Shown here: piece after piece, positions 12,786 through 58,900 of the stretch
Position numbering within the stretch: the stretch's first letter is position 1
Layout of the letters: each line of letters begins with the position of its first letter
Assembly (NCBI GenBank): GCA_038049695.1
Contig: CP142452.1
Span: 36,134,501 to 36,198,500 of the forward strand
DNA: 64,000 nucleotides
Direction: 5' to 3'
From: Cinnamomum chago
Taxonomy: Eukaryota > Streptophyta > Magnoliopsida > Laurales > Lauraceae
Translations under genes and position numbers: made by a program
Notes under the pieces: model-generated
Told to the model about the DNA's origin: nothing
The model's input: only the letters and a program-made list of their open reading frames with translations
The model's database searches: none

Positions 12786-12832
12786 TAGTCCTCGGTCGAC
12801 CTGCAAACAGGTCTCGGTCGACCGGGATCACA
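12786..12832. repeat. Palindrome pair (GTCGAC type) in solo LTR Q1
   Basis: Two copies of a CTCGGTCGACC-type palindrome about 22 bp apart. In the sense direction of the LTR they lie just upstream of the TATA-like box at 12759-12768. This is a smaller version of the array in Q2. Confidence 0.75.
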
Positions 12833-13970
12833 CAACGGTCAGAAAAATGACCGTTGGTGCTCCAGGGGCCCTTTCTGCCTGCATATTTGAAGGTTTCTCT
12901 TTGTGGGGATTTTTGGGCCACTAAACCAAGCTTGGAAACATGTTTTAAATCAACTTAAGATGTTTAAAAAACATGAAACACACAAAGCCTAAATAGATTC
13001 GAAACTTTAAATCCAAATGCTAGCTTGATTTCTAAAAACTCTTTCCATATGAAAATGCATACAAAGATGATTCTGAAAGTGATGAATGCATGCAAGGCAC
13101 AAACCTAAATTCTCAATATGATTTCACAAAAGTAATGCACAAAGAATTAGGTTTTAAAAAGAGTTTGGATTCTAAAATCAATGCATCCAAGTTTAGAAAC
13201 AAAACATGCATAAAACAAAACTTTTACAAATCTTAAAAGCAATGCATGTATAAAACCAGATTTCAAGGTTTTCTAAAACAATGCAAGTGTGATAATTCAA
13301 ATGATGCTAAAGTGAAAATGCATCCATCAAATTGCAAATACAAAATCCCTAACAGAAACTCAAGAACCCGCTCGACGTCTAGTTGACATCGTCGGGCTGC
13401 CATTCTCTAACAGGGGTTGGCTCAAAAGCCTCCTCCGGACGCTCCTCCTCAAAGGAAATGTTGTTAGGGATTTTGTATTTTCAATTTGATGGATGCATTA
13501 ACATATTCATATCATTTGAATTTACACTCTTGCATTGTTTTAGAAAACCTTGAAATCTGGTTTTATACATGCATTGCTTTTAAGAATTGTAAAAGTTTTG
13601 TTTTATGCATGTTTTGGTTTTAAACTTGGATGCATTGGTTTTAGAATCCAAACTCTTTTGAAAACCTAATTCTTTGTGAATTATATTTGGAAAATCAATT
13701 TGAGAAGTTAGGTTTGTGCATTGCATACATTCATCACTTTAAGAATCATTTTTGTATGCATTTTTATGAGAAAAGAGTTTTATCAAATCAAGCTAGCCTT
13801 TGTTTTTAAAGTTTCAAATCATTTTAGGCTTTGGGTGTTTCATGTTTTTAAACATCTTAGAATGACTTAAAACATGCTATTCAAGCTTGATTTAGTGGCC
13901 AAAAAGTTCCCCAAAGAAATACCTTCAAATATGAAAAAATTGGATTTTTGGTCAACAGGGCAGTCACCCG

Positions 13971-14110
13971 GCAGTGTCGCCGGTCGACCGAGACCTGTAT
14001 CTCGGTCGACCGAGGACACTGCAGCTTGACTGCACCTGAAGCTCCAACGGTCACTTTTTTGCCCGTTGTGTGGTCTAGGTCGACCGAGGCCTGTTTCTAG
14101 GTCGACCGAG
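13971..14110. repeat. Palindrome array (GTCGAC type) in solo LTR Q2
   Basis: Four copies of a GGTCGACCGAG-type palindrome. The first two are nested inside a larger dyad, with GCAGTGTC at 13971 and GACACTGC ending near 14022. The array ends about 25 bp before the TATA box at 14136, so it sits in the core promoter region of the LTR. Confidence 0.85.
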
Positions 14111-14775
14111 AGACTAGCCGTTGGACTGTTTTTTGCTATAAAGTTCATTCATTTCCAACCTTTTTCAAGGCTTGACACATGAACTTTTGAGAGCATTTTG
14201 GAGCCAAAGAAAGGGGAAGAAGTTGGAAAGGCTAGAGGGCTTTTTGGAAATCAAATTCATGACTTATTAAAAGGTACATCTTTATAGTTATTTTGATTTC
14301 CATTCAAATGAAATCCATGCATGTTCAAATCCTTTGTATTTTCATTTATGCATGATTTCAAGCCTTTAAAGAGTTGTGTTGCAAACTCAATATCATCTTT
14401 GGTAAATTTGATTGGTTTGCAAACTCTCTTATCCTAATCACATGTGTTCTTAGACTTTAACATTCATACAACTTGTTTGTTTCATTTCTTCAAAGTTGTT
14501 TGAATCTTTTATGTGATTAGTTTTATCTTCAATCATCATTTTATAAACCTTGATTTTAAAATGCATCATGCATTCATTTAAGAGCTTTATTGTTAAAATT
14601 GATTGAAGAAAAGCATTCATACACTTGTGCACACACTTTAGCTTGTTTTAGTGTATGTTTGTAAGTTGAATTAAACTTTCACATTAGCCTATTTAAGAGG
14701 CAATTCCATTGTGCTTAAATTGTATCTCTTGGAGTGTTCTTTTGTGAAGACACCATCTTAGAGAAATATTCATTT

Positions 14776-14945
14776 GTAAAGGTTATTGCTTAGCCTAAGA
14801 AAAGCATCTTGTAAGGTTATTGCTTAGCCTAAGAAAAGCATTTTGTAAAGGTTATTGCTTAGCCTATAAAAGCACATTGAGAGGTTGTTGTTTAGCCTAG
14901 AAAAACAACATTGTAAGGGTTATTGCTTAGCCTTGTAAAAAGCAT
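14776..14945 (+). repeat. Minisatellite in solo LTR Q2
   Basis: About five imperfect copies of a 30-35 bp unit containing GGTTATTGCTTAGCCT and a following AAAAGCAT-like phrase. It ends just before the conserved block GTGGAAATCCGGTGGGG. Copy number and unit length differ from Q1 and Q3. Confidence 0.8.
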
Positions 14946-16104
14946 AAATAGTGGAAATCCGGTGGGGTGATTAGATCACAAGCCGGTAGTGGATGTAGGC
15001 ATTGAGGCCGAACCACTATAAACCTTGGTGTTGTGGTGCTTGCTTTTGTGGTGATTGTTTATATTAGCTTCCGCATATTGTTTGATTAATCATCACATGT
15101 GACTAGTTTTTGTTAAGAAGTTAAAATTGGTTTAAGTTGGTCACAATTGTAGCTCACCCTATTCACCCCCCCCCCCCCCTCTAGGGTTAGGATCCCAAGG
15201 ACTTTCAAATGTCACCTGCACCTGGGCACCAACAAACAAGGGTCAAACACAACGGTTTGACAGGTAATCAATTTAGGTGAAAACATGAAAAAAATAACGT
15301 GATAAGAAAACATATAAGCAAATCCCTGATTTGAAATACTACAATGACTGTGATACATTTTCGAAAATACAAACAAAGCGGAGATACTAAAACAAACTAG
15401 CATGAGTACATATAATATCATGAATAGTTACAATCCACAAAGAGCCCATCCTTTCTCTATCATTTATAAATAAAAAGAGCAAGCACGCACGACAAGCACG
15501 ATATACATAATATAATCACGACACGATTCCCACATATACGGGGATTTCCGGCCCCGGAACCGGACACGCACGATGTGTAATAAATACACGACAGTCTGCA
15601 GACAATCCACATGTTTAAGGACCCCCAGACAGTGGATCAAACTGAAAGGGCAGTCCAAGCTCAGTGGTGTTCACTTAATTCATGAATGCACAAAACACGA
15701 GAAACGCTATCAAAACAGGTCGGGGTAAAAAGGGGGAAAATCACTTATCAAACAAAACAAACACGACTAGCAAAAGGCATAATTAATATGCATAACACAC
15801 TTAGGAAGTGATCCCCTTTTTTCTTGAAACAAATCTCCGAAACGAGTGCACGACGGTACTTATCGTACCAAGACGGAAATTCAAAATACGAAATCTGACA
15901 AACACGTGTTAAGGCTACTAATTTGACCTTTGTGTAATTGGGACCCCAAATGTTGAAATATACAAGAATTGGTGTCCCCGAAGTTGGGTTTCATTTCGAA
16001 GTTCCAATTACACAATGTCAAGTCAAAACCCTTAACATAGTCTAGTTTTTCAACCTTCAAGAAAATACCCAAATGAAATAATTCTTCTTCCTGAATCTGG
16101 CAGG

Positions 16105-16333
16105 TTCGCTCGAGCTGAACTTGTAAGGTATTGACACTTCGCTCGAGCGAGACAGTTCGCTCGAGCAGACAATAAGGTCGCTCGGGCGGACAACTCTCTG
16201 TCTTGCTCCAATTTAAACAGTGGGCAGTTTGCTCAAGCAGACATGAGGTCGCTCGAGCGGATAGCTCTCTGTCTACGCTCGGACCAAGCAGTGGCTTGGT
16301 CGCTCGAGTAGCCCAAGGGTCGCTCGAGCGGAC
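16105..16333. repeat. Palindrome array (CTCGAG type) in the 3' LTR of Gypsy A
   Basis: About eight exact or degenerate copies of TCGCTCGAGCG, several read as TTCGCTCGAGCGA, are spread over about 230 bp with 10-40 bp spacers. The 5' LTR carries the matching array at 26021-26250 with point differences inside the motif copies. Confidence 0.85.
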
Positions 16334-17553
16334 AAGCTTCTGCCTGTGCTCGCTGAGTGCAGAAAAAGCCTTTCTCTTGTACAACTTCCCACACATTTCT
16401 CTCCTTCTTCTCCTCCTTAATTCACATACAATCCCTTGAGCCTTCATGCTCACCAAGGGTTCATTTTCACCATTTCAACCATCCAATCCAATGAAAACAT
16501 GATCATAAAGCTTGTAAACAAATTTATATGCAAAATTCCTAAAATAACAATGAAATCAAAATACACATGCAACATTGAACCTATAGAGATTACTTGCCTT
16601 AGTCCAAGATGTCTCACACTTCTCCAAGCACTTCACTCACTAAACCAAAGAACTACAAAAACCCATGAAAACCACACAAAACTCACTCAATCTTGAAAAC
16701 AAGAAACCCATTTTACCAAAGGGGTTTGTAACATGAAAAACAAGATCTTTAAGGAACTAAAAAGACTTCATGAAAGGTATGGGTTGAAGCTCTTACCTAG
16801 AAATGCTCAAACAAGAAGGAATGAAGAAAATGGAGAGCCTTCCCAACTTTAGCTTTCAAGAAGAAGACATCAATAGGAAGCTTGAGATGAGAGGAAGAAG
16901 ATGATGGCTTAGAATTCCATTTGGAGGCCTCTAACTAGATCATACAAGGTGAGGAAGATGGGAGAAAAGAGGGTTTTCTATCCTTTGGCTGCTCTAGGGT
17001 TTGGTTTTAGAATGAAAAGAGTAAAGGGGGAAAGAGATGGGTTGACTTAAGTGCTTGCAATTGGGCTCAAATGGTCTACTCTTGTATCAATGAAAACATG
17101 GTCTTGCGGGCCTCGAATGAACTCGGCGAAGAAGGATAAAACGATCCTCGAAATATCTAGTTTCCAAAAAGTATATTTTTGACATGGTTTTGAGATCTCG
17201 AATTTTGTGTCCAGATTTGTGTAAAAAGACCACTTTACCCTTTTTGGGCCAGAACTTGGGTTTTTGGGCTTCAAACATGAATGGGCTTAAGACGGAAGTT
17301 GTAACACATAGAAAAATCATTCAAATGAAATAAAAATCATAATTACACGGAAATTGATACGATCCTCCCAAGCTTACACATGCACTCAAGCCTTCCTAAG
17401 TGTGTCTGACTAATACTAAACGTTCTCAAAATTCCGAAAGCTATGTCTAAGACTAAAACTAATTACTTCTAACCCAACGACAACTAAACCCACTTAGGAC
17501 TAAACACATACTAATCGCACACTAATCGAATTGGTCTGGGTCGGGGTCTAACA

Positions 17554-17570
17554 TCCTCCACCCCTTAGGA
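17554..17570 (-). other. Polypurine tract of Gypsy A
   Basis: On minus this reads AAGGGGTGGAGGA directly before the TGTTAGACCCC start of the 3' LTR. This is the expected priming site for plus-strand DNA synthesis. Confidence 0.85.
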
Positions 17571-17629
17571 TATTTGGTCCACCAAATAAATCAAACAATT
17601 ACCTCTGGTAAAAGCTGTGGATACTTCCT

Positions 17630-19065
17630 CTACACTTGCTCTCTCAATTCCCAGGTGGCTTCTTCTGGCTCGTTATTTTCCCAAAGTGCCTTGACCCAAT
17701 GAATAGTCTGATTTCTCAATTCCTGCTCTTTGGTATCAATTATCTTGATCGGTCTTTCCACATACGAGGCATCTTCTCGAATCTCCAAAGGCTCATGCTG
17801 TAGTATATGTGAAGGACTAGAAACATATTTCTTGAGCATAGAAACATGAAATACATTGTGCACTCCGGAGAGTTCCGGCAGTAGTGCAAGCCTATAAGCA
17901 ACATTTCCAATCTTGCTCAAAATCTCGTACGGACCAATAAACCTTCTAGACAATTTGCCCTTCTGTCTGAATCTCAAAGTCCCTCTAACTGGTGAGATCT
18001 TCAAGAACACTTTGTCGCCCACCTGAAACTACAATTCTCTTCGGCGAGTGTTTGTATAACTCTTCTGCCTACTTCGGGCGATCTTCAACCGTTCCTGAAT
18101 CAACTGGACCTTGTCACTTGTCTCTCCAACTATCGTCGGTACATGAATACTACGCTCACCGACTTCTTCCCAGCAAACCGGAGTTCTGCATCTTCTACCA
18201 TAAAGTGCCTCAAAAGGTGCCATACCGATGCTAGAGTGGTAACTATTGTTATAAGCAAATTCACAAAGCGGTAAGCATTCATCCCACTGAACCTTGAAAT
18301 CCAATACACAAGCACGCAACATGTCTTCGAGAGTCTGTATCGTCCTTTCTGACTGACCATCTGTCTGAGGATGATAAGTTGTGCTGAACTGAAGTTTGGT
18401 ACCCATAGACTCATGAAGCGTTTTCCAAAACTTTGAAACAAACCTACTGTCTCTGTCTGAAGTAATGGAGATGGGCTGGCCATGTTTACTAACAATTTCA
18501 TCAACAAATAACTTCGTAAGTGGTGCCATATGCATCATGTTCCCTGTCTTCATCGGAATGAAGTGAGCAGACTTTGTCAGACGATCTACAATAATCCAAA
18601 TTGCATTATTTCTCTTCTTGGTATTCGGCAAACCGGAAACGAAATCCATGGTGATGTGCTCTCATTTCCACTCCGGAATCTCCAGCGGTTGTAACAAACC
18701 CGGGGGCTTCTGATGCTCTGCCTTAATCAACTGACAAGTCAGACAACGAGACACAAAAGCTACTATCTCTCTCTTCATGTTGTTCCACCAAAATCTATTC
18801 TTCAAATTGTGGTACATCTTCGTGCTACCCGGATGCATAGAATATCTCGTGCTGTGAGCTTCATTCATTATTTCACTCTTCAAGTCATCCACATTTGGCA
18901 CACACAACCGGTCACGAAAATACAATATCCCATTCACCATCTTGAAATCTGGACATTCTGTAATATGTTTCACTATCTTTGCCAAGTCTGGGTCTTGCAA
19001 CTGATTTTCCTTGATCTTCTGGATGAAGGTAGGTTCTGATACTGTCATGTTTGCTAACATCGCAC
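17630..19065 (-). pseudogene. Integrase region of Gypsy A
   Basis: In sense order: the HHCC zinc-binding region (YSMHPGSTKMYHNLK, then CLTCQ, about 18730-18860), the integrase core (MDFVSGLP, VDRLTKSAHFIP, FSTTYHPQTDGQSERTIQ, about 18330-18650), the C-terminal DNA-binding part with GPYEIL and VFHVSMLKK, and a chromodomain-like end with VKALWENNEPEEATWE near 17640-17690. That last motif places the element among Del/Tekay-type chromoviruses. The region is broken as an open frame. Confidence 0.88.
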
Positions 19066-19444
19066 TCAATTGTTAGGATTTTTGTAGATTGCAATTTGAT
19101 GGATGCATAATCATTCAAGCATCATTTGATTTACACATATGCATTGATTTAGATAATCTTGAAATCTTGTTTTATACATGCATTGTTTTTAAGAATTGTT
19201 AAAGTTTTGATTTATGCATGTTTTGTTTTTAATCTTGGATGCATTTGTTTTAGAAAAGAGTTTTTAGAAATCAAGCAAGCCTTTGGTTTTAAAGTTTTGA
19301 ATCATTTTAGGCTTTTTGTGTTTCATGTTTTTAAACCACTTAGAATGATTTAAAACATGTTTTATAGCTTGATTTAATGGCCCAAAAAGTTCCCTCAAGA
19401 AAAACCTTCAAATATGCAAAAGTTGGGAATTTTTGGTCCCAGGC

Positions 19445-19600
19445 AGTCAACCTGCAGTGTGGCAGGTCGACCTGCCCAGGGAACCGGGTTGACCTGCCAC
19501 ACTGCAGGTCGACTGGGTTTCTGAAGCTCCAACAGATCTTTTTATGACCGTTGTGTGTAGCAGGTCGACCCCCCCTGTTGGCAGGTCGACCTGGGACTAG
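19445..19600. repeat. Palindrome array and hairpin (GTCGAC type) in solo LTR Q3
   Basis: A 21-bp stem at 19452-19472 pairs with 19487-19507 with one mismatch across a 14-bp loop. Both arms contain CAGGTCGACC-like palindromes. A second pair of CAGGTCGACC motifs lies at 19561-19593. The array ends about 20-25 bp before the TATA box. Confidence 0.85.
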
Positions 19601-19790
19601 CCGTTGGGCATTTTTTCCTATAAATATGAGTTCTTTCCTTTGCCAAAAGTTGGGAATTTTAAGGCCCTCCTTGAGGGGTTTTGAGGCAAATACAAGGGAA
19701 ATGAACTAAGGGATGAAGGGAATCATTAGGAAAGCTAAAGCTTGGATTAATGAAGTTAAATCACCAAGTAGGCTCTACTTTCCTTAATCG

Positions 19791-20403
19791 TATGTTTTCA
19801 TGCCTTGTTTTACTTTTGGTAAATCTTTTGTAGCATGATAAACTATGTATGTAATGTTGTGTCCTTAACATGTTTTATGTTTTGAGTTGATTTATTGTTT
19901 TGGATACAACACCATTTGATTCAATCCAAGTAGTACTTTATCTTTGGTAAATCTAAGTAGATCATGTTAATGAAAGAACCTTTGAAATTATATGTAACAT
20001 GATTCCTATACTTGGTTGAATCTATGGTTGTTGTTTTTCAACATAAGAAAATCACTTTGAAAACTATCTTATGTTTTGGATTCAACATCTTTACAAATCA
20101 TATGTTTTCATGTTTTTGTTTTATCTTTGGTAAATCTTTAGTAGCATGTTAACCTATGATGTGTTGAGTCCTTAGCATGTTTTATGTTTTGAATTGATCT
20201 ATTGTTTTGGATGCATCACCATTGATTCAATCCAAGTAGTACTTTATTTGGTAAATCTAAGTAGATCATGTTAATGAAAGAATCTTTGAAATTATATGTA
20301 ACATGATTCATATACTTGGTTGAATCTTTGGTTGTTGTTTTCCATCATAAGAAAATCTCTTTCAATTGTATCTTATGTTTTGGATTCAACATTTTTACAA
20401 ATC
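19791..20403 (+). repeat. Tandem duplication, two units of about 305-310 bp, in solo LTR Q3
   Basis: The unit beginning TATGTTTTCATG occurs at 19791-20100 and again at 20101-20403, with high identity and small indels. It holds paired TTTGGTAAATCT phrases. This explains most of the extra length of Q3 over Q1 and Q2. Confidence 0.85.
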
Positions 20404-20925
20404 ATATGGACTTTTGTTTTAAAGTTTCACAACTTGCATTACTTTGATAGGTATATCTTTTTCAAGTTGATTTTATAAGTTCATATGATTTGTCCCCTAA
20501 TTTCAATCAGATCTATTTTTATGCTTTATGAGCTACAATGTTGATTTGATTGACATCCCTATGCATCACATGTTTAGAGCTAATTAATTTCATACAACTT
20601 GTGAATCTTTGACATCATTAACAAGTTGTTACTTTTAACATGTGACTTGCATTCTTTCCTCAATCATAAATGTTTTTATGAGCTAAAACTTTCAAAAGCC
20701 TTAGGCATACATTTATGAGCTTTCATTTTCAAAATGATTGAGGACATCACACACATACACATCATGTACTTTCATCTTTGCATTCATAGTGTGTGTGTGT
20801 GTGTGTATTAGATTTTCATTTTCATATCCGCCTATTTTAGAGGCAAATGTAATGAGCTAAATTTGTATCTCCATCAAGTGTATGTTAGACACTACTTAGA
20901 GAGATAGCCAACCATTTGGTTGAAG

Positions 20926-21065
20926 AGGTTATTGCTTAGCCTATAAAAGCATATTGTATAGGTTGATGTTAAGCCTTGAAAAACATCATTGTAAAGGTTA
21001 TTGCTTAGCCTTGAAAAGCATATTGTAAAGGTTATTGCTTAGCCTATTGAAAAACATAAATAGTG
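20926..21065 (+). repeat. Minisatellite in solo LTR Q3
   Basis: About four imperfect copies of the GGTTATTGCTTAGCCT unit also found in Q1 and Q2, again ending at the GTGGAAATCCGGTGGGG block. One copy is altered. Confidence 0.75.
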
Positions 21066-21318
21066 GAAATCCGGTGGGGTGTTGGATCACAAGCCGGTAG
21101 TGGATGTAGGCATTGAGGCCGAACCACTATAAATCCTTGTGTGATGGTGCTTGCTTTGTGGTGATTGTTTTTATTATGCTTCCGTATTTTGTTTGATAAT
21201 CATCACTTGTGACTAGTTTGTTTTAAAGAAGTTAAAATTGATTAAAATTGGTCATAAATGAAGCTCACCCTATTCACCCCCCCCCCTCTAGGGTTCGGAT
21301 CCCCGGACTTACACCAAT

Positions 21319-22826
21319 TTCAAGGTTTGCACTTCTACACCCAACTCTTCAAACTGCTGTAAGACACCCATTCCTCTCAAATTGGCCATAACCACTGATT
21401 TCCTGCTCAGTGCATCAGTTACAACATTCACTTTGCCTGGATGATATTTGATTGGAAAGTCATAATCCTTGATATACTCCATCCACCGTCTCTGTCTCAT
21501 ATTCAAATCCTTCTGTGAGAACAAATATTGTAAACTTCGGTGATCCGAATGGACTTCAAACTTCTCTCCATAGAGATAGTGTCTCCACATCTTCAAAGCA
21601 AAAACAACTGCTGCCAATTCCAAGTCATGAGTTGCATAGTTCTTCTCATGGTCCTTCAATTGTCTCGAGCCATAAGCAATCACCTTGCCATCTTGCATCA
21701 ATACACAACCTAGTCCCACATTCGAAGCATCTGTATAGACAATAAATCCACCGTTGCCCGAGGGTAATGTAAGGATTGGGGCTGTGGTTAACCTTCCTTT
21801 CAACTCTTGAAAACTTGTTTCACACTGATCGGTCCACACAAATGGGACATTCTTCCTAGTCAATTTTGTCAACGGGGCTGCAATGGACGAAAAACCTTGG
21901 ACAAATCTTCTATAATAGCCTGCCAACCCCAAAAAGCTTCTAATTTCTGTCACACTGTTTGGCCTTACCCAATTAACAACTGCCTCTATCTTAGCTGGAT
22001 CAACTGCTAAACCTTCTCTGGAGATGATGTGGCCTAGAAAAGCAACTTGCTCTAACCAGAATTCGCACTTACTGAGTTTTGAAAAAAGCTGGTTGTTCCT
22101 CAAAAGCTGTAACGCTGTCCTCAAATGTTCTTCATGCTCCTTCTTACTCTTGGAATACACAAGGACATCATCAATGAATACTACTGTAGAGTGATCCAAA
22201 TGGGGTGCAAAGACTTTGTTCATAAGAGCCATAAAAACTGCGGGTGCATTTGTCAAACCAAAGGGCATCACTAAGAACTCGTAGTGCCCATATCTTTTTC
22301 TAAAGGTTGTCTTCTGAACATCTGAGTCTCTAACTCTCAACTGATGGTACCCTGACCTCAAGTCTATCTTGGAAAAATAGGCTGCTCCTTGCAATTGATC
22401 AAATAATTCGTCTATCCTTGGCAATGGATACTTGTTCTTCACGGTCACATGGTTCAACTTCCTATAGTCAATGCACATTCTCAAACTCCCATCCTTCTTT
22501 TTCACAAACAACACCGGTGCTCCCCACGGTGAAACACTTGGCCTAATAAAACCTTTGCTCAACAAATCCTGCAATTGGAGTTTTAGTTCACCCATTTCTG
22601 CTGGAGCCATTCTGTAAGGTGCAATCGAGATCGGAGCTGTCCCTGGAAGGAGCTCAATTGTAAACTCAACTTCTTTAATTGGTGGTAAACCCGGGATTTC
22701 TTCTGGAAAAACATCCGAAAATTCACACACAATGGGGATATCCTCCACCCCTTGGGACTGTTTATCCTCCGTGATAAACGCAATAAATGCCTGACATCCA
22801 CTCTGCACTAATCTGTTTGCCTTCAA
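21319..22826 (-). pseudogene. Reverse transcriptase and RNase H region of Gypsy A
   Basis: One long open stretch. In sense order: [12 protein letters not shown] at the entry; fingers and palm with [20 protein letters not shown] and [49 protein letters not shown]; the catalytic FIDDVLVYS near 22150; connection motif [14 protein letters not shown]; and RNase H with [28 protein letters not shown] and [11 protein letters not shown]. This is the enzyme that copies element RNA into DNA and removes the RNA strand. Its sequence is well preserved, but the element as a whole is broken by the Q3 insertion immediately after it. Confidence 0.93.
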
Positions 22827-22838
22827 AACCGAAATAAA

Positions 22839-23285
22839 TCATGCCTGAGTTTTTCTCCTGTTCCCCTGAAATATCAATTCTGCCTGTGGTCCTTGGAATC
22901 TGAATGTGATGGTCTTACTAAAACAATCCATGGTGGCATGATATGCTTCTAACCAATCCATGCCTAAAATGACATCAAAATCATGCATGTCCAAAACTAT
23001 GAGGTTGGCCGGTAAATTAACATCTCCTAACAAAATTGTACAACTAGGGTAATGGGTTTTACACACAACTTGTTTCCCTACTGGAGTGGTTACTACTAGA
23101 ATGTAATCCAATTCACTACATGGTGCATCAATCAACTTAGCAAAACTAGGGGATGAAAAAGAATGCGTGGATCCAGGGTCAAATAAAATCTGGGCTTCTA
23201 CCCCACAAACAAGAAGTTTACCTTCTACCACGTCTCCTGCAACTTCAGCATCTGCACGGTTGAGATAATATAAACGTCCATGCAT
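22839..23285 (-). pseudogene. Aspartic protease region of Gypsy A
   Basis: It contains ILFDPGSTHSFSS, the retropepsin active-site loop in the DPGSTH form common in plant Gypsy elements. It then has LIVLDMHDFDVILGMDWL, the second conserved block. It lies between the zinc knuckles and reverse transcriptase, as expected for the polyprotein. Confidence 0.85.
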
Positions 23286-23378
23286 CTGTAGTCTATTTGG
23301 TACTTGGTTCTGCCTTCCTTGGCCATGTCTGTTCTGCTGTGGAGGACGAGCATTCTGATTCTGTGCTGGTGGCCTAGC

Positions 23379-24479: not shown

Positions 24480-24623
24480 AGTGCTATAAAACAAGGAGTT
24501 AGAACACAATAAACATGGTATGAGGGTTTCTAAGGTCCTATACCAACGAATCTATCGAACTCACGAATCCTCGTCACGTTCCTAAGACATTTCAAGTTTC
24601 TTTTAAGTGCCTAAAACATGTCC

Positions 24624-27471: not shown

Positions 27472-27516
27472 GAGCCTGCGGATGGTCTCAAAATACTTCC
27501 AAAAGGCTCCACGTCA

Positions 27517-44844: not shown

Positions 44845-44849
44845 CTAGA

Positions 44850-47859: not shown

Positions 47860-47878
47860 TCCTCCACCCCTTAGAGCA
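47860..47878 (-). other. Polypurine tract of Gypsy B
   Basis: On minus it reads TAAGGGGTGGAGGA directly before the 3' LTR, as in Gypsy A. Confidence 0.8.
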
Positions 47879-47879
47879 T

Positions 47880-49286
47880 TTGGTCCACCAATTGAAATAC
47901 AACTCACCTCAGGTAAAAGGTGTGGATACTTTTTCTGCACTTGATCTTGTAGTTCCCACGTCGCTTTTTCTGGTCCATGATTCTCCCAAAGTACTTTCAC
48001 CCACTGAATAGTCCGTGTCCTCAGCTCTTGTTCCTTGGTGTCAATGATCTGAACGGGCTTCTCAACATAGGTAGCGTCCTCTCGAATTTCCAAAGGCTCA
48101 TGCCAGAGTACATGCAAAGGGTTGGGGACGTACTTCTTCAACATAGATACATGAAAGACGTTGTGCACGCCGGATAGCTCGGGTGGTAAGGCTAATCTAT
48201 AAGCCACGTCACCGATCTTGCTCACAATGTCATACGGTCCAATGCATCTCTGTGATAGCTTGCCTTTCTGCCCAAATCTCAATGTTCCCCTTGTAAGTGA
48301 CACTTTCAAGAAAACCTTGTCTCCTTCTTTGAACTATAAATCCCTTCGATGAGAGTCTGCATAGCTGTTCTATCTATTCCGGGCTACTTTCAAACGTTCT
48401 TACATTAGCTTGACTTTTCACTGGTTTCACTCACAATGGTTGGTCCATGGAAACTGCGAATTCCGACCTCTTCCCAATATACAGGTGTCCTACACCTTCT
48501 GCCATACAATGCCTCGAAAGGCTCCATCCCAATGCTCGAATGGTAACTGTTGTTGTAAGCAAACTCACACAACGATAGGGTCTCATCCCATTGAGTCTTA
48601 AAATCCAATACACAAACACGGAGCATATCCTCGAGAGTCTAAATAGTTCTCTCTGACTAGCCATCTGTCTGAGGGTGATAAGCCGTGCTAAACTGTAGTT
48701 TCGTACCCATAGACTCATGTAGTGTCTTCCAGAATCTCGAGACGAATCTGCTGTCTCTGTCAGATGTGATAGAAACTGGCTGTCCATGTCGACTGACAAT
48801 CTCATTGACAAACAATTCTACCAAAGGTAGCATGTGCATCCTCTTCCCTGTCCTCATAGGAATAAAGTGAGCTGATTTGGTCAGTCGGTCCACAATGACC
48901 CATATTGCGTTGTTGCCTCTACTGGTCCTCAGTAGTCCCGAAAAAATCCATGGTAATGTCCCCCATTTCCATTCTGGGATCTCTAATGGTTGTAACAACC
49001 CTGGAGGCCTCTGATGTTCTGCCTTTATTAACTGGCAAGTCATACAACGGGAGACGAATGCTGCAATCTCTCTCTTCATGTTATTCCACCAAAATCTGCC
49101 CTTCAAATTTTGATACATCTTCGTACTGCCTGGATGCATAGAGTACTTCCTACTGTGAGCCTCTGTCATGATGTCACTCCTCAAATTTTCAATGTTGGGT
49201 ACACATAGACGATCACGGTAGTATAAAACTCCATCAACAATACAGAATTCAGGACGGTCTGCTATATGCGCTGAAATCTTAGCCAA
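47880..49286 (-). pseudogene. Integrase region of Gypsy B
   Basis: Recognisable by YSMHPGSTKMYQNLK and CMTCQLIKAEHQ (zinc-binding part), VDRLTKSAHFIPM and FSTAYHPQTDG (catalytic core), GPYDIVSKIGDVAYRL and VFHVSMLKKYV (C-terminal part), and WVKVLWENHGPEKATWE (chromodomain-like end). It is fragmentary. Confidence 0.87.
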
Positions 49287-49298
49287 CTCTGGATCTTG

Positions 49299-50870
49299 TT
49301 ACTGACTATCTTTGATCTTCTGAATGAAAGAAGGCTCTGACACTGACATGTTAACTAATAGTACACCTTTCCTTAGTGGTTGTAGGTCTATACTCAACTC
49401 TTCAAATTGTTCAAAAATACAGGCGCCACTTAGATTTGCCAAGCCTACTGATTTTCTACTCAAGGTATCGGCAACTACATTAGCTTTTCTCGAGTGATAC
49501 TTGATTGGAAAATCGTAGTCTTTGATATATTTCATCCATCTTCTCTGCCTCATGTTCAATTTCTTCTGAGAAAACAAATACAGCAAGTTGCGATGATCGG
49601 AGTGGACTTCGAACTTCTCTCCATAGAGGTAATGTCTCCACATCTTCAACGCAAAGATGACCGCTGCTAACTCAAGATCATGGGTGGCATAATTCTTCTC
49701 GTGATCTTTCAACTGTTGGGATCCATATCCAACAACTTTTCCTTCTTGCATCAACACGCATCAGTAAAAATGGTGAAACCGCCGCTTCCGGATGGCAAAG
49801 TGGTGTTGTAGTCAATCTCTTCTTCAGCTCTTAGAAACTAGTTTCACACTGATCTGTCCACACATATGGTACATTCTTCCTTGTCAACTTCCTCAATGGT
49901 GACGCAATCGACGAAAATCCTTACACAAACCTCCGATAATAGCCTGTTAATCCCAGAAAACTCCTGATTTCTATCACATTCTTCGGTCTTTCCCACTTCA
50001 CTACTGCCTCAATTTTGGACGGATCAACTGATAATCCTTCTCTGGAAATGAAGTGTCCCAAAAATGCTACTTGCTCTAAACAGAGTTCGCACTTCTTGAG
50101 CTTCGCATACAGATGGTTCTCTCAAGAGTTGCAATGCTATCCTCAAGTGCTCTTCATGCTCTTCTTTAGTCTTGGAGTGCACCAAAATATCGTCAATGAA
50201 TACTACCACAAATTGATCCAAGTACTGTGCGAATATCTTATTCATCAACGCCATGAACAATGCCGGTGCATTGGTCAACCCAAATGGCATAACTAAGAAC
50301 TCATAGTGGCCATATCTCGTCCAGAAAGTTGTTTTCAACACATCTGATTCTCTGACTCTCAGCTGATGATAACCGGATCTCAAGTCAATCTTCAAAAAAT
50401 ATTAAGCACCTTGTAACTAATCAAACAGTTCATCTATTCTTGGCAATGGATATTTGTTCTTAATGGTCACTTGATTCAATCTTCTGTAATCAATACACAT
50501 TCTCATCGAGCCATCTTTCTTCTTGACGAACAAGACTGGAGCTCCTCATGGTGAGATGCTCGGTCTCACGAAACCTTTGTCCAATAATTCTTGTAACTGT
50601 ATTTTCAACTCTCCCAATTCTGCCGGAGCCATACGATATGGTGCAATAGTAATCGGAGCAATCCCTGGTAACAACTCAATAGTGAAATCAATCTCTCTGA
50701 TGGGTGGTAATCCTGGAATCTCCTCCGGAAAAACATCCGGGAATTCTCAAACAATTGCGATTTCCTCCACCATTTGGGACCGTTTATCCTCCGCGATAAA
50801 CGCCAAATAGGCTTCACATCCACTTTTCAAAAGCCTATCAGCTTTCAATGCTGAGACAAACCCTGTACGA
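49299..50870 (-). pseudogene. Reverse transcriptase and RNase H region of Gypsy B
   Basis: Motifs in sense order: [39 protein letters not shown] (catalytic pair), then RNase H with [31 protein letters not shown] and [12 protein letters not shown]. It is fragmentary; the order matches Gypsy A. Confidence 0.87.
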
Positions 50871-51290
50871 GGATTCTTCCTCTCTTCCTAAAATAACACC
50901 CCTGTTGGTGTCTCATCTAACTTGAAAGTAAGAGTCTTATGGAAACAATCCATCGTGGCATGGTACCCTGCTAACCAATCCATCCCTAGGATGACATCAT
51001 AATCATACATCTCCAATAAAATGAGATATGCGGTTAAAACCACTTCTCCTATCTGAATTACACAACTAGGGTAAAAGGTTCTACAAATAACTTGTTTACC
51101 TACTGGGTTGTCACAGTCAAAATGAACTCAAGTTCTCTATCATGCACATCAATCAACTTAGAAAACGCAGGAGACAAAAATGAGTGTGTAAACCCAGGGT
51201 CAAATAAAATATTAGCTTTAATCCCACAAACAAGGAGTGTACCTTCCACAACATTGCCTGCTGCCTCTGCAGTAGCTCTATTAACCGCAT
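50870..51290 (-). pseudogene. Aspartic protease region of Gypsy B
   Basis: ILFDPGFTHSFLSPAFSKLID matches in type the retropepsin loop of Gypsy A, read here at about 51155-51215. YDVILGMDWLAGYHATMDCF follows near 50940-51000. It is fragmentary. Confidence 0.8.
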
Positions 51291-51399
51291 ATATTTGTCC
51301 TCGTTGTTATGGCCTATTCCGAGCCTGTTGTGGCCTACCTTGTTGGACATTTTTATTCTGTTGTGGTGCACGCTGATTTTGGTTCTGTCCCTGTTGATA

Positions 51400-51830
51400 A
51401 CAGGCCTACTGTTATTGCTGTTGTGGTCTATACTGTTGCTGTGGTGCTTGTTGCTGAAGTGGTCTTGCCTGATTCTGGATAACTATTGCATTTTGTAGTG
51501 GTGTTGGACGTTGTGCCCCTTACTGCTGCTGATTCTGCCTATTCTGCCTTGGACAGTCTCTCATCTGGTGGTTCATAGAACCACATCTGAAGCATGCTCC
51601 TGTAAGTGTACGGCACTGTGTACTCTCATGGCTCCTCCCACAGTGGGTACAAACCAATGGATTTTGAGCATTGTGTTTTGTCCTCTGCTTCTTGTCCTGA
51701 TGATTCTTCTGCTGGTAGTTCTGCTGATGAGCTTGCCCTTTCCCTTGAACTCTAAGAATCTTGTTGTGAAAATTCCCAAACTTGTAGGCTCTCTTGACAG
51801 GTTCCTCAAAGGTGATAGGTGGTACTACAC
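51400..51830 (-). pseudogene. Gag C-terminal part of Gypsy B with zinc knuckles
   Basis: Two CCHC-type knuckles, CTHCGRSHESTQC and CFRCGSMNHQMRDC, at about 51550-51645. A Gln-rich tail follows toward 51400. The gag start lies across the nested solo LTR. Confidence 0.82.
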
Positions 51831-51834
51831 CAGT

Positions 51835-54800
51835 TGTCGCGACCCCGGACCGGGAATCCCAATCCGGGATCGGGACTAATTGTGGTGAATGATGATGATT
51901 AACGAGGATTATCTACATCCACAATATACAACTTACTTAATTTCCCACAGGTGTCCGCGGTGAGGATATCACAACCTTGCATGAATATTTCTTTTGAGTG
52001 CGGAAGCGTGTAGCAAATCAAATAGTAGGACTATCTCTAGTCATGCAAGCATTAACATCAAATATCAAAACGGTATCAGAAAGAGCAATGATCTATAGCA
52101 TGTTTCCCAAAAGTTGTTAAAGTTAGACAAAATATCATTTAGTTACATTCCCCAAAAATTAGAGGCCAACAAAGGCCAATATTACAAAAATAATAACCCA
52201 AAAGAATGGTTAATAAGTTCTCCCCAAAATGTTACGCCTCTTGTAGCAACCCGATGTCTACAGGACATCGTCAGCGCGCCACTCAACTAGAGGTTGCGGC
52301 TCACCTACCGCCTCCTCCGGCTCCTCCTCAAGGAAACCGGCAACGGGACCTGAGTACCAAAGCAAAGGATCAGACACGACGGTCTGGCAAGAGAGTGAGA
52401 AGATACAACAACATATAATATATGAAATATCTCGAAAAGCAAGGAAATCTGTTTAAGCAAGAACTCTCTCAAAATAGATAAATCATTTGCTAGAAATCGT
52501 GTAAACAAGATAAAACTCATAGGGTATCCAAGGAATCAGGAACAAACAAGATGGCGACCACACGAAGCTAAGTCCTCTATCACTAAGGTGATAGAGCAAT
52601 AACTAGGCCCTGATCTCAGTCACTCAAGGTGAGGAGAAACAGGGGCTCTCATATAATTACATATACATATACTATACATGACCACGGTAGCGAGCCGGGC
52701 ATCGGGGACCACAGTAGCAATCTGCGGTATCGGGACAAGACCACGGTAATGACCGGGTAGCGGGATCCAAACTGCAGCTGGCAGGACAAGAGGGGGATCT
52801 CCAAGTCGGTGGATCAAACCAACGAGGTTATCCAAGCTTAGTGGTGCCGACTGATAGGTCAAATACAATTGAGACAATGCAAGTAAATCAAGTACAAATA
52901 TATAATCAAACGGGCAAGACGGGGGTGCTCAAGGGCACACTGACATATCATGTGGTGCAATGCACTTCGGGTCAAGTAACCATTTCAAGTGTACAACAAT
53001 GCTTTCGGGGAAAACAAGTCATGTAATGTAAAATCTTGGAAATGAAGAATATAATGAACTATACCAATCCGGGAAAGATAATGATTTTAAGATCTATTTG
53101 AGTGAATAGGGGTCCCGTATGTCGATTATTGAAATGACTTGGTACTCCTTGAGTTTGAAGACATTCCGGGCTCCTTATGCATTTTTACACTTTTCAAAAC
53201 TTCGAATGACATCCTTGTGATATGGTTTCTTTCTCAAATGGCCTCATACAATGCCTAGTGAATCTCCTTTGATCGACAAAGCTCGACGCTCGAACGAACC
53301 GGAGAGTTCGTTCGAGCGGGGAGCTTTTCGAAATCTGGAGAATTTCGGTTACCTTGCGGTCATCTGGCGGTTAGCCGCCGCTGGGACGGGCGGCTAGCCG
53401 CTGGCTGACCGCGGCTGGGCTGCAGAAATGCAGCTCACTGGAAAGCTGACCGCCAATGCGCGGTTACCTGGCGGTTAGCCGCCGATGGGTTCCGCGGTTA
53501 GCCGCTGGCTAACCGTGAGGCTGACCGCGTTTTCAGGGGGGAAATGATGCTCTCTGGAAAAGGAACCGTGACATTTCGGTTACCTGGCGGTTAGCCGCCA
53601 GTCACCAGACGGCTAGCCGCCGGGTGGCCGCAGGCTGACCGCCAGTGCGGGAATCACCCACTGTGTGCAGATTTGAGTCACTTTCCTCCTCAAAACCATC
53701 CTCCTCACTTTCACTTAATCCTTGACACAAAACTGAGCTAAAAGCTCCTCCAATGCATCTATTTTCACTTCTCCCAATACTCCAATATTTGTTCATTCAT
53801 CCCTTCCTCCATCCACATCAAATCCAATACAAGAAAGAAGGAAACCATATCACCATAGAGTACATTGGGTATAAACAAGAAAAGGATTAAATGCCATTCA
53901 CTACTACACTTATAAGTCATAATTGCAATACCATAAATGCACTACTAAAGCTCCATTATGAACATTTATGTCAAACTAATGTAATAAATAGACATGAGTG
54001 AAAAACACCAAAAATCAAGGAAAGCTTATAAAGATCAAAACATCCACTTGCCTTGTGTCTCCTAACAATGCAATAAAGCTCTAATACTCTTCCAAGCAAG
54101 GAATCCAAGCTATGAACAAAAATCCCCAAAAACAAACCCTAAAAGAGTCAAACCAATGAAATAGAAAGGGGAACTTTACAATAATGGAAATGAAGCTTCT
54201 CAAGGGCTAGAGGAACACTAATCTAGGAGATGGGAAGAATCACTTACTTGGGTGGCCTTCAAATGAAGAGAACTAGTTCAAAGAAGATCTCTAGATTGAT
54301 GGATTTCTCCAAAAATAGTATCAAGAGGAAGCTTGTGAGATGAGGAAGAGATTGGAAATCTCCATTTCTTGATTGATGAGCTCTTGGTGAGGCTTGGAGA
54401 TGGAGAAGCAAGAAGAAGAAAAGAAAAGCAATGAAAACCCTAGACTCAATAGTTGTGCTGGAACATGAAAATGGAGAAGGAAGGGAAGGGTTCCTCTTTG
54501 TTAACACTTGGGTGGTTGGGTCCCACAACTTAAAGAACTACGTTGGCTGAAATCATCTCTCTCGGGTCCTCGGCTGAATTCGACGAAGGAGGAAGAAATG
54601 TTCGTCGAAATATCTAGTTTTCAGAAAATGTATGTTTCGCGAGTTTCGAGAATATTAAGTTTTGGGTACAGATTTGGTGTGAAATGACTGTTTTACCCTC
54701 AAGGCTATGAAATCGGGTTTCGGGACCTCAAATGGGCACGGGATCAACATGAAAGTTGTAAGAATCCACAAGATGAATGCAACGGGCCAAAAACACAATT

Positions 54801-55009
54801 CACAACAAATCGGAAAAATCTCGCAAGAAAATGCAAAGCCGAAAAGGGAACCCCCAAAGGGCCCCACTAGCCAACAAAACACTCAAAGCAGCCCAAAGCT
54901 AAAATCAAGGTTATTCCAAACCCAACTTAACCAAAAACACTAATCAAGCTTAGCACTAACACGTAACTTAATTAGCACTAATCGGGTTCACTCGGGTCGG
55001 GGTCTTACA
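51835..55009 (-). mobile_element. Solo LTR C, same superfamily as the Gypsy B LTRs, nested in Gypsy B gag
   Basis: A 3175-bp unit, TGTCGCGACCCCGGACC to GGTCGGGGTCTTACA on +, with the perfect duplication CCAGT at 51830-51834 and 55010-55014. It aligns with the Gypsy B LTRs through most of its length. However, the palindrome region (53287-53645) is largely replaced by a different motif. There are no internal genes. Confidence 0.9.
53287..53645. repeat. Palindrome array (GGCGGTTAGCCGCC type) in solo LTR C
   Basis: After two degenerate CTCGAACGAA-type motifs at 53287-53320, the array switches to GGCGGTTAGCCGCC, GGCGGCTAGCCGC and GGCTGACCGC variants. There are roughly ten half- or full-palindromes over about 300 bp. 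It is strikingly GC-rich compared with its surroundings. Confidence 0.85.
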
Positions 55010-55014
55010 CCAGT

Positions 55015-55783
55015 GGTGTCTCTTTCAATGATGGGGTTAAGTCCCTCTAGGAACTTTGTAATTTTCTTCTCCACGGTGTCCACCAACTCTGGAGCATATC
55101 TAGACAATCTCTCAAACTTTGTGAGGTATTCGAGGACTGTCATGTTCCCTTGCACAAGCTGCTGGAATTCCACTGCTTTCTGCCTCTTGATGTGGGTGGG
55201 TACATATTTATCATGAAACTGCTTCTTGAAGTTTGCCCAAGCCACCGCATCTGCCATGGTTCTATATTCATCCCTAATTGTCTTCCACCCTATGTTTGTT
55301 GCACCGTTAAAGAAAGATGATGCAAGTTTCACTCTCTCTCCTCCAGTGCATTGGAAAATCTCGAAGATGTTCTCGGTATGCTCTAGCCAATCATCTGCAG
55401 CCAATGGATCCTCTATGCCTAGGAAGTCATTCGGAGCTCTCTTCCGAAACTGCTAAAATAAAGCGTTTCGGGTCATGTTGCCTTTGATTGATGACAATTG
55501 CGGGTTGGGCTTGAAACGGTTCGGGCCTCCTCTGTAATACTTCTAACAGTTGCCTCTGCATTTCTGCCAATTCCCTGGCATGATCTTCCTCTCTCTTATG
55601 CATCTATTCTTGCAATTTAGTTTGGTTTTCATTAGCCTGATGTTGTTGGTCAAGTATTCCCTACATCATCTATTGGAATTCATTTGGTATATTGTTATCA
55701 ACTATATCTTCCTCAACTGGCCCTGTGTGATCATTGTTACTTCCGGAAGGGTTGCCGTTTATCGGTCTCTTACGAGGAGGCAT
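55015..55783 (-). pseudogene. Gag N-terminal part of Gypsy B
   Basis: It starts at MPPRKRPINGNPSG (55781-55783). A coiled-coil-like Gln/Glu stretch is followed by the gag core motifs AADDWLEHTENIFEIF, FKKQFHDKYVP, YLTKFERLSRYAPELVD and FLEGLNPIIE. It is fragmentary. Confidence 0.85.
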
Positions 55784-55927
55784 GATGCTACAAAACAAGT
55801 TGTTAGCACATAATAATCAAATAAAAGGTCACAAATTGCTCACACGATACTAGCTAACGAAGAGTTTAACGAATCCTTGTCACGTCCTTAGGATTTCTAG
55901 TTTCTTTTAATTGCTTGAAACACGTCT

Positions 55928-55943
55928 CGCTCTGATACCAGTC
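55928..55943 (-). other. Primer-binding site of Gypsy B
   Basis: On minus, next to the 5' LTR end, it reads TGGTATCAGAGC after a three-base spacer, matching initiator tRNA-Met as in Gypsy A. Confidence 0.87.
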
Positions 55944-58900
55944 TATCGTGACCCCGGACCGGGTTACCGAGGTCCTAATTCGGGATCAGCACTATTGTGG
56001 TATGTTGTGTACATATTTATTTAATTTCCCACAGGTGTCCGCGGTGAGGATATCACAATAACATAAATATTTCTTTCAATGAAGAAGCGTTTAGTAATTC
56101 AAATTGATAATTCAATTCTAGTCATAAGATAACAACACATATATAAACCAAGTATCAGAATGAGCAATGATCATTACTGCATTCCCAAAAGAAAAGTTAA
56201 AGTTTATACAAAAGATCATTTAATTACACTTCCCAAAAATAGAGGCCAACAAAGGCCAATATAGACAAAATATCAATCCCTTAAGAATGGTTAAATGTTT
56301 CTCAAAAAGTTTCGTCTCTCATAGCAATCAAATGTCTACACGACATCATCAGCATGCCACTCAACTAGGAGTTGCGGTTCACCGACGGGATAGACAATGT
56401 CCGGACCTGAGTACCAAACAGTGAGTCAAACACGACGGTTTAGCAAACGGGTGAAAAGACATGACAATAAAACAATAAATGAATTTACCTTCAAAAGCAT
56501 TTAATTTTGTTTAAATAGCAATTTCCATAAAAGAGATAAATCATTTATCCAAATACAAGCATGTGTTGTAAAACATGTAAGGGTAACCAAGGAAACAGGA
56601 AACAAGCAAGATGGCAACCACAGGAAGCTAAGTCCTCTATCACTGAAGTGACAGAGCAATATCAAGGCGTTGATCTCAGTCACACGAGGTGAGGAGAAAC
56701 AACGAAATATATACATATACATATAATATACGGGACATGACCACGGTAGCGAGCCGGGCATCGGGAATCACGGTAGCAGTCCGAGGTATCGGGACAAGAC
56801 CACGGTAATAACCGGGTAGCGGGATCCAAACTGCAGCTGGCGAGACAAGTCCAAGTCGGTGGATCAGACCAACAGGGTTATCCAAGCTTAGTGGTCCGAC
56901 TCATAGGTCAAATGACAAAAATCAAAACATGTGTAAAATACTTCAAGTGCAAGTACATAAACAGGCGGAACGGGGGTGCTCAAAGGCACAATAGTCATAT
57001 CAATCCGGGCATGCTTATCGGGACTAGTAAAATGCTACAATTGAAATTTCAACATTTTCGGGAATACATAAGAAATTCGGGGATAATGAAATACAAATGA
57101 GCTTTCAAAATCTCAAACAAGTATCGGGGTTCAAGATTTGTTTAAGGTGAATAGGGGTCTCGTATGTCAATTTAATGACAACTTGGTACTCTTCTAGTTT
57201 TGGGACATTCCGGACTCCTTATACATCTTACGATTTTTAAAACTTCAAATGAAATCTTTGTGATGTGGTTTTTTTCCCAAACGGATGTCAAATCATAAGA
57301 ACGGTTCTTCTCATTACAATAGGGCTCCCAACAAACCTCTCTAAATCATATAAACATTTCATTTGTGCTCCCAAAACAGCCCCAGGTGAACAGTACCCAT
57401 CGCTTGAGCGGACTAGAGGTTCGCTCGAGCGATGAGGTCTCTGGTTGTCTGGATGGGTTCGCTCGAGCGAAGTTGAAGTCGCTCGAGCGAACTCATCCAG
57501 CATCAGGTTGGCTCGAGCGGAAGTTCAGTTCGCTCGAACTAACCACTCTCTCGAACAAGTTTTGGGAGGGTTCGTTCGAGCAACAAAGGGGTCCGCTCGA
57601 GCGAACTATCCACTGGAAAGGTACGAACCCATTTCTGAACCCTTCGCTCGAGCGACCTATCAAGTTTGTTCAAGCGAACTGTCCAAAAACTGATTCCGGG
57701 ACAGTTCTTCTCCTCTCTTTCTCCTCCTTTTACAACCTCTTTTTAGCCCCTTAAATACACCAAATGAGGAGTTCAAAACTCCATCCAAATCAACCTCAAA
57801 TCTCCTACAACATCCATTCCATCCTCCTCCAACAATATCACATCCAAATACAAAGAAAGAAGGGAAGGAAACCACTATACCAAGAACTCATTTGAACTAA
57901 AAATAAGGGAAAATTGAATACCATGAACCAATACATTTCTATGACAGTAAATGCACTATCAAAGCTCTTTCATGAGCATTCATTTCAAGTCAATGCAATA
58001 AATAAGCATGTATGAAAAAAAAATCAACCACATTTCTTATAAAACCTTTGAAAGCTCATAAAATCAAATCATCCACTTGCCTTAGGTCCAAGCTAATCAA
58101 TAATAAGCTTTAGACACTCCTCCAATCCAAAGATCCAAGCTATGAGCAAAAATCCCTAAAAACAAACCATAAATGGGTCAAAACAAGAAATCAAAAGAGA
58201 AACCTTACAATAATGAAAATGGAACCTCTTCAAGGATAAAGGAACACAAATCTAAGAGATGAGGAGTGTTGCTTACTTGTAGGTTCTCCAAATGGGCAAG
58301 GTGAGCTCAAAGAGAGTCTTGGGATGTGAGTTTTCTCCAAAAATGGTATCAATGGAAAGTTATGGTGATGAGGAAGAAGATGATGATCTATATTCCTCAA
58401 TTTGTGCAAGGTTGGTGGTGGATTTGGTGGTGGAAAGCAAGAGAAAAAGAAGGAGAAAAGGAAAAGGGAAAACCCTAGTTAATGGTTTGAGCTAGAAAAA
58501 GGGGAAAAGAGAGAGGAGGTTTCTCCTTTTATAGAAAATGGAGTTGGGTCCCACCACTAGAATCCTTTGTGGGCTGAAATCATGATTATCAGGGCTTCGA
58601 ATGAATTCGACGAAGAAGAGAAAAGTGATCGTTGAAATTTCTAGTTTCCAAAAAGTATATGTTTCGCAGGTTTCAGGAATATCAAATTTTTTGGTACAAA
58701 TTTAGTGTAAAATGACTGTTTTGCCCTCAATGCTAGGAAAGTCTGGTTTCGGGATCTTGAACGGGCACGGGATCAACATAAAAGTTGCAGGGATTAATGA
58801 GATAAATAAAACAGTATTAAAATAATAAACAAAGAAATCTCAGATAATTCCCCAAGTAAACGCAAAGTTATAAAAGGAACCCCCAAAGGGCCCCACTAGT

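Follow-up and report, generated by a model that had tools for sequence, protein, structure and literature searches.

Palindrome arrays with kept layout and changing sequence in the long terminal repeats of Gypsy and Sirevirus-like elements of Cinnamomum chago

What is maintained in a retroelement when its palindromes keep their place and change their sequence? This question is raised by a stretch of 64,000 nucleotides from Cinnamomum chago (assembly GCA_038049695.1, contig CP142452.1, positions 36,134,501 to 36,198,500; hereafter the window), in which the long terminal repeats (LTRs) of two Gypsy elements (A and B), a further solo LTR (C), and three Sirevirus-like solo LTRs of Copia type (1 to 3) carry compact arrays of short palindromes (Table 1). 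A preliminary description counted eight arrays and saw in their kept architecture, changing palindromes, and occurrence in unrelated superfamilies a sign of selection for dyad symmetry itself. Arrays do exist at or near all eight places, but they represent only six insertions because A and B were each counted at both LTRs. With a probability of roughly one half, the sequences suggest that the arrays may be LTR enhancers built from doublets of dyad-symmetric sites, the sequence of which turns over under a constraint on symmetry and spacing.

The arrays are real and lie above chance. The window contains 26 perfect palindromes with a CG centre and a length of at least 10 bp, versus 7.8 ± 2.6 (maximum 13) in 30 dinucleotide shuffles. 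The whole genome (1.06 Gb, 14 contigs, with the window on contig C2) was searched as well, with the outer letters of the palindromes restricted to B and V. Here, GGTCGACC occurred 73,548 times and GCTCGAGC 38,915 times, as compared with 8,210 for the control GGACGTCC of the same composition and CpG centre; the same three patterns read backward gave 9,007, 4,401, and 10,537 places, respectively. GGCGGTTAGCCGCC was found at 2,727 + 2,854 places (reversed control 0), and GGTTAACC is without a clear genome-wide excess (11,412 versus 10,782 for its reversed control).

Judged from their sequence, solo LTR C and the LTRs of Gypsy A and Gypsy B are chromovirus-like and related to one another. The internal DNA of A and B is 72% alike and the LTR flanks of B and C are 72-74% alike, with an alignment gap that spans the array (self-BLAST), so solo LTR C is not the independent case that it had been taken for. 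The arrays occupy a similar mid-LTR place, with GCTCGAGC in A and B and GGCTARCC in C. Since a CTCGAG-type doublet (53288/53310, 22 bp) remains at the downstream edge of array C, this LTR looks like a half-finished palindrome replacement. Two details had to be corrected: GGCGGTTAGCCGCC, previously placed at 53287, lies at 53366, 53470, and 53586 and deviates by a single base from perfect symmetry, and the two-unit array at 12786 runs on the minus strand. The palindrome type also does not follow the superfamily, as GGTCGACC occurs in a Gypsy family too.

The spacing of the units persists across these changes. In the window, 18 of the 23 gaps below 45 bp measure 18-23 bp, all palindrome classes included (A and B at one LTR each). 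The spacing of GGTCGACC and GCTCGAGC units was also measured in the first sites listed on contig C1, with no limit on length. Among the matches listed, 24 of 26 GGTCGACC gaps below 45 bp are 19-23 bp (the other two are 16 bp), and all eight GCTCGAGC gaps below 45 bp are 20-23 bp.

Around the GGTCGACC core, symmetry extends into arms that are nearly free in sequence. Among the matches listed, 63 distinct sites had 145 of 252 arm positions matched versus 106.0 ± 6.9 expected (reached in 0 of 5,000 shuffles), and the control GGACGTCC had no arm symmetry (46/148 versus 45.5 expected, also among the matches listed). The same class forms cassettes of two dyads, and in the 39 distinct cassettes among the matches listed the arms outside the core vary yet match across each 16-bp dyad, with local matches of 121/156 versus 86.8 ± 5.2 (z 6.6) and 115/156 versus 85.6 ± 5.3 (z 5.5). 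Furthermore, 11 fully symmetric arm types were present among 106 distinct 16-mers (3.2 ± 1.8 expected, maximum 11 in 3,000), and linking them takes at least 10 paired changes. Common descent of the sites makes these shuffles overstate the significance. A long hairpin formed by the entire cassette was rejected as the carrier of the covariation (z 1.3 and 0.6), and direct duplication is not supported as the main cause of the matching arms (z -0.6 and 2.5).

A change of the palindrome centre was caught within a single Gypsy family, whose LTR L107 (C1:1332831-1336674, target-site duplication (TSD) TCCCG) lies outside the window and carries GGTCGACC units. The ends of L107 could be set in two ways, each with matching 5-bp repeats, and the end of the pair adopted here abuts gag in L116 and L117. 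Of the relatives found with its end, 40 were scored, at 92-94% when L107 itself is set aside. At the three loci read (L115-L117), the relatives flank Gypsy gag, protease, reverse transcriptase (RT), and integrase, with an RT amino acid identity to Gypsy A of 77-81% over 259-393 amino acids (L117, L115) and 68% over 68 amino acids (L116). Six regions of the family were fetched, five of which reached the array; L122, L123, and L124 are the LTRs adjoining L116, L117, and L115, and the sixth region (L127), which by eye stops short of the array on its upstream side, shows no core. L107 and L123-L126 hold 5, 5, 4, 4, and 3 exact GGTCGACC cores (21 in total) and no GGTTAACC. In L122, all eight cores read GGTTAACC and none GGTCGACC, a switch of the centre from TCGA to TTAA. 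L122 is 66-75% like the other LTRs of the family over 429-695 bases (longest match to each). Decayed or changed cores (GGTCGACT, GGTCGGCC, TGTCGACC) occur in the five relatives of L122, and GGTTGACC sites stand past the array in L107, L122 (two), L125, and L126. Elsewhere, the first 50 listed GGTTAACC sites on C1 include three further clusters below 150 bp with eight sites, and the arms of GGTTAACC match somewhat (47 versus 35.4 ± 5.3; 94/5,000 shuffles). The paired changes that had been proposed as a check were thus observed in the GGTCGACC class and at the centre of one Gypsy LTR.

L122 also bears on two rival explanations. The first supposes that CpG density is what matters, the arrays being silencing decoys or CpG islands whose symmetry merely follows from CpG-rich units. 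The observed/expected ratio of CpG is indeed 0.48-1.23 in the arrays versus 0.14-0.70 in the remainder of the five LTRs measured (1.04 versus 0.14 in LTR 2), and clusters of the palindromic RM boxes of Sireviruses bound CpG islands (Bousios 2010, PMC2829016, in its accessible part). However, matching arms are not demanded by CpG density alone, and in L122 the central CpG is lost at 8/8 cores with the symmetry kept, the ratio of the array being 0.52 versus 0.93 in L123. This explanation is thereby only weakened, since 11 of the 16 CpGs adjoining the L122 cores remain, and we regard it as quite improbable. The same 11 CpGs, together with the lack of any half-changed core in the array, make CpG decay after insertion an unlikely origin of the TTAA centres. 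The second rival is neutral: a copying process, namely fold-back template switching on quasi-palindromes and slippage of modules, would make and perfect palindromes that are tolerated in a non-coding stretch. It accounts for arms that are free but matching and for the switch of all cores in L122, which has internal repeats of ~100 bp (74% alike); quasipalindrome template switching is moreover described as a mutation process of E. coli, as far as the consulted part of that literature goes. It does not lead one to expect the similar position of the arrays in the LTRs of A, B, and C, the adjoining TATA box in Sirevirus-like LTRs, a doublet spacing of mostly 18-23 bp, or the retention of CpG in arrays within CpG-poorer LTRs, and is therefore considered unlikely.

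Both superfamilies share a cassette with the layout CAGTGT, dyad, short spacer, dyad, ACACTG. The pattern CAGTGT, 1-5, GGTCGACC, 26-38, ACACTG gave 5,282 + 5,277 genome matches and 0 when read backward; many sites are counted on both strands, and the 100 matches shown correspond to 56 sites, among which 53 are 50 bp and three are 51 bp. The cassette is present in 36 of 42 Sirevirus-like pieces, in the Gypsy family (48, 51, 52, 48, and 48 bp in L107 and L123-L126), and in three LTRs of no assigned superfamily (L103, L108, and L110). A fixed length of 50 bp was rejected, since with a left arm of four bases the pattern could list no cassette below 50 bp and the Gypsy cassettes differ in length; a range of 48-52 bp is given instead. 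The superfamilies had been considered unrelated, with shared descent unable to explain the Copia arrays. This independence is doubtful, since the likeness of the cassettes in the two could stem from an exchange. It is conceivable, albeit rather doubtful, that a regulatory cassette of ~50 bp, its two dyads separated by about two helical turns, passed between Copia and Gypsy and undergoes concerted evolution, every dyad of an array changing its core at the same time without loss of symmetry or spacing, as if in pursuit of changing dimeric regulators of the host. Arm identity as proof of such a transfer was rejected: the arms of L107 are 15/16 like a sampled cassette, a likeness that 13% of trials with random pool arms and 32% of those with re-paired units also reached.

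Whether the palindromes act as DNA or as RNA is an older question. Bousios and colleagues reportedly favoured, in 2016, RNA hairpins and small RNAs for the palindromes of maize Sireviruses. By this account, the units fold in the transcript for packaging or dimerisation, or are diced to small RNAs. The predicted folding of array windows is stronger than that of shuffled sequence (mean z -4.6, -2.9, -2.1, -6.0, and -4.0 for Sirevirus-like LTRs 2 and 3, A, B, and C), with z of only -1.5 to 0.1 elsewhere in the five LTRs, a result that follows from the fact that palindromes must fold. A small-RNA excess over Sirevirus palindromes and a concentration of hairpin-prone regions in maize Copia LTRs have also been described (PMC10760457, as far as its consulted part shows). 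If hairpins of the sense RNA were selected, an excess of G-U cells would show that C-to-T changes are tolerated on the sense strand. Yet G-U is not above A-C among distinct units (B 51 versus 75, A 13 versus 33, Sirevirus-like 18 versus 22); A and B lean the opposite way, though founder states repeat there. The test is blunted since older copies decay after insertion. It nevertheless leaves sense-RNA hairpins, one of the functions suggested in the preliminary description, without support as the selected feature, and the covariation is local rather than spread along a long hairpin. RNA hairpins are accordingly held to be unlikely. Local covariation, spacing, and the lack of a wobble excess together lean towards a DNA site rather than decide between DNA and RNA.

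The enhancer reading would thus work as follows. Dyad-symmetric DNA sites would form doublets with a spacing of about two helical turns, each site probably being bound by a dimeric regulator of the host. The core would turn over among GGTCGACC, GGTTAACC, GGCTARCC, and GCTCGAGC, with almost free arms in the GGTCGACC class, as arrays could be rebuilt through module duplication. Selection may meanwhile keep symmetry and spacing, possibly assisted by a self-templated correction of palindrome arms during copying of the element. Several points weigh against this reading. A single sequence-specific dimer would not yield free but matching arms, for which a base-pairing process is needed. Arm covariation is weak or absent in the GCTCGAGC class: distinct sites gave 52/112 matches versus 40.6 ± 4.7 (49/5,000 shuffles; among the matches listed), all 50 listed sites 94 versus 83.0 ± 6.4 (278/5,000 shuffles), and three of 74 distinct GCTCGAGC sites are fully symmetric where 4.2 are expected. 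Within a cassette, the two right arms are slightly alike (z 2.5), so some duplication history is mixed in, and L122 has not kept the outer CAGTGT and gives no cassette match. In the Gypsy LTRs, no convincing TATA box could be placed beside the array, and TATTTAA of Gypsy B was dropped as a candidate since it is kept in 3/31 B pieces. In another LTR family (L094, L096, L099), a TATA-like box precedes the GCTCGAGC array by ~110-125 bp, so that the order found in Sireviruses is inverted (strand by eye). A literature search for a candidate CGG-binding plant factor gave no structure paper.

The Copia half of the observation is known. RM boxes in the LTRs of Sireviruses, which are plant-specific, are palindromic, present in many copies, CpG-rich, and built on a CGG-CCG core just upstream of a conserved TATA box, and most Sirevirus elements have a different palindrome (Bousios 2010, BMC Genomics 11:89, PMC2829016; this and the following statements on it refer to its accessible part). 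Since the published table already holds many different palindromes, a change of palindrome with kept architecture is not new in Sireviruses. The grapevine RM box, CGGTCGACCG, is identical to the unit of the three solo LTRs, and the citrus version with its CGGCTWRCCG core (PMC2829016) resembles array C. The CGGTCGACCG units of the solo LTRs are palindromic with CGG-CCG and soon followed by TATA; the AGGTCGACCT-type units of LTR 3 lack CGG. Among the Gypsy arrays, C has the CGG-CCG core (CGGTTAGCCG/CGGCTAGCCG), whereas the CGCTCGAGCG-type units of A and B do not. Part of the units of the L107 family have it (CGGTCGACCG and CGGTTAACCG), but this family is not a Sirevirus as its host element is Gypsy. 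What this genome adds to the published report for Copia (PMC2829016) is the presence of arrays in chromovirus-like LTRs of Gypsy elements, a cassette of similar layout in either superfamily, the replacement of one palindrome by another among Gypsy LTRs that are related, and a measurement of arm covariation.

Two further features agree with the Sirevirus assignment. L118, a relative of solo LTR 2 on C1, has four AGGGGGAG polypurine tracts, the last within AGGGGGAGATTGTTAGG, and AT/TG at the 3′ LTR; multiple polypurine tracts and such a junction are described for Sireviruses (PMC2829016). A TATA box (CTATAAA/CTATATA) lies 30-32 bp beyond the last core centre in LTR 2 (CTATAAA, 32 bp), LTR 3 (CTATAAAT, 30 bp), and L105, and none was scored by this pattern in LTR 1 and L102. 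A looser pattern detected TATA in 38 of the 42 related promoter pieces, at no more than 45 bp from the CCGTTGG that stands last beside the array. Of these 42 pieces, 26 contain two MSA-like motifs, 15 contain one, and a single piece lacks the motif (loci including L009-L038, L069-L075, L102, L104, and L105), as opposed to 0/47 Gypsy pieces, and all four motifs of the window lie in the three Sirevirus-like LTRs. The motif YCYAACGGYYA is presumably a G2/M element, and its presence suggests that expression of these LTRs may be linked to the cell cycle. Sirevirus-like LTR matches ~5.2-6.4 kb apart flank internal pieces on C1 and C11 (L089, L090). L089 (2.6 kb) has a gag-like frame of 325 amino acids, which matches CCHC weakly (E 0.007), and its one other frame, of 98 amino acids, lies on the opposite strand; L090 has one frame of 108 amino acids without a match. 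Both elements look non-autonomous because the 2.6-kb piece has a gag-like frame and no pol frame.

Table 1. Elements, arrays, and other features of the window (PBS, primer-binding site)
Feature	Position	Strand	Details
Gypsy A element (chromovirus-like)	11336-27471	-	TSD GAGCC, perfect; evidence: self-BLAST, ends, PBS, Pfam
Gypsy A 5′ LTR	24641-27471	-	adjoined by PBS-like TGGTATCAGAGC
Gypsy A 3′ LTR	11336-17553	-	split by two Sirevirus-like solo LTRs
Gypsy A 5′ LTR array	26020-26250	-	8 GCTCGAGC-type units (at most 1 mismatch); start spacings 33, 18, 21, 51, 20, 51, 21
Gypsy A 3′ LTR array	16104-16333	-	8 GCTCGAGC-type units
Gypsy B element	44850-59039	-	TSD CTAGA, perfect; 5′ LTR 55944-59039, 3′ LTR 44850-47859
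Gypsy B 5′ LTR array	57398-57680	-	9 GCTCGAGC-type units to 57657, doublets 20-21 bp apart; a further, more decayed unit reaches ~57680 (by eye)
Gypsy B 3′ LTR array	46315-46502	-	5 units; shorter than 5′ LTR array
Solo LTR C, relative of Gypsy B LTR	51835-55009	-	TSD CCAGT; nested in Gypsy B
Solo LTR C array	53284-53650	-	CTCGAG-type doublet and GGCTARCC doublets (23, 23, 22 bp); upper limit by eye
Sirevirus-like solo LTR 1	11699-13354	-	TSD GAAAC
LTR 1 array	12790-12827	-	2 units
Sirevirus-like solo LTR 2	13462-15207	+	TSD AATGT
LTR 2 array	13972-14111	+	4 GGTCGACC units (22, 74, 22 bp); 50-bp CAGTGT..ACACTG cassette 13972-14021
Sirevirus-like solo LTR 3	19071-21313	+	TSD 4/5 letters (TCAAT/CCAAT); inside Gypsy A pol
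LTR 3 array	19455-19595	+	5 units including GGCAGGTCGACCTGCC; cassette 19455-19504
MSA-like motif	12777-12787		
MSA-like motif TCCAACGGTCA	14043-14053	+	between two palindrome doublets of LTR 2
MSA-like motif, second in LTR 2	14115-14125	-	
MSA-like motif	19598-19608		
Inverted repeat	1249-2948 / 5450-7126		1.7 kb, 78%
Self-inverted stretch	35742-35956		215 bp, 95%
Tandem duplication	43707-44163		227 bp, 98%

In the window, the frames of Gypsy A encode protease, RT, RNase H, and integrase in the order of Gypsy chromoviruses (Pfam). This order is found in A and, through L115-L117, in the L107 family; in B, the Pfam scan covered the integrase. The Chromo match of Gypsy B is weak (E 7e-4; 19.9 bits against a curated cutoff of 25.1), and the Pfam scan lists no chromodomain match for Gypsy A. 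The A/B group may belong to the Tekay/Del lineage. Solo LTRs 1-3 belong to one Copia-type family, and all are inserted into Gypsy A. Two of them sit in its 3′ LTR in opposite directions, 107 bp apart, both with perfect 5-bp duplications. Among the 20 array loci picked from the genome lists (L091-L110), L093 looks by eye like coding DNA and not an LTR, L103 combines nine GGTCGACC cores and one GGTTAACC core, many ~99 bp apart, and long perfect palindromes of 28 bp (L108) and 20 bp (L097, L091, L104) occur within arrays.

The elements resemble known chromovirus-type Gypsy elements with long LTRs in their gene order, LTR length of 2.8-3.8 kb, and TGGTATCAGAGC primer site beside the LTR, and possibly in the weak chromodomain match of B. 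They differ from them in their LTR palindrome arrays, of which no report for Gypsy LTRs was found in the accessible parts of the open-licence literature, PMC3601003, PMC6911290, PMC10794571, and PMC5738225 included; subscription papers were not searchable and priority is not certain. Palindromes have been discussed as insertion targets of LTR elements (PMC6911290, in part). As in C. chago, the palindromes of maize Sireviruses cluster in the cis region of the LTR with strong predicted structure, and maize Ty3/Gypsy elements generally have no obvious peak of such structure (PMC10760457, in the part available), whereas the Gypsy LTRs examined in this genome do have the array.

The surprise lies in three things occurring together: arms that are free in sequence and match nonetheless, a single LTR of a family in which every core has switched its centre, and a cassette of similar layout in both superfamilies. 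If the enhancer reading is true, a modular dyad code would be common to plant LTR promoters of both superfamilies, and the palindrome turnover known between Sirevirus species could be caught within one family of one genome. An old question, namely the role of the palindromes in Sireviruses and whether selection acts on a DNA site or on an RNA hairpin, would then become directly testable.

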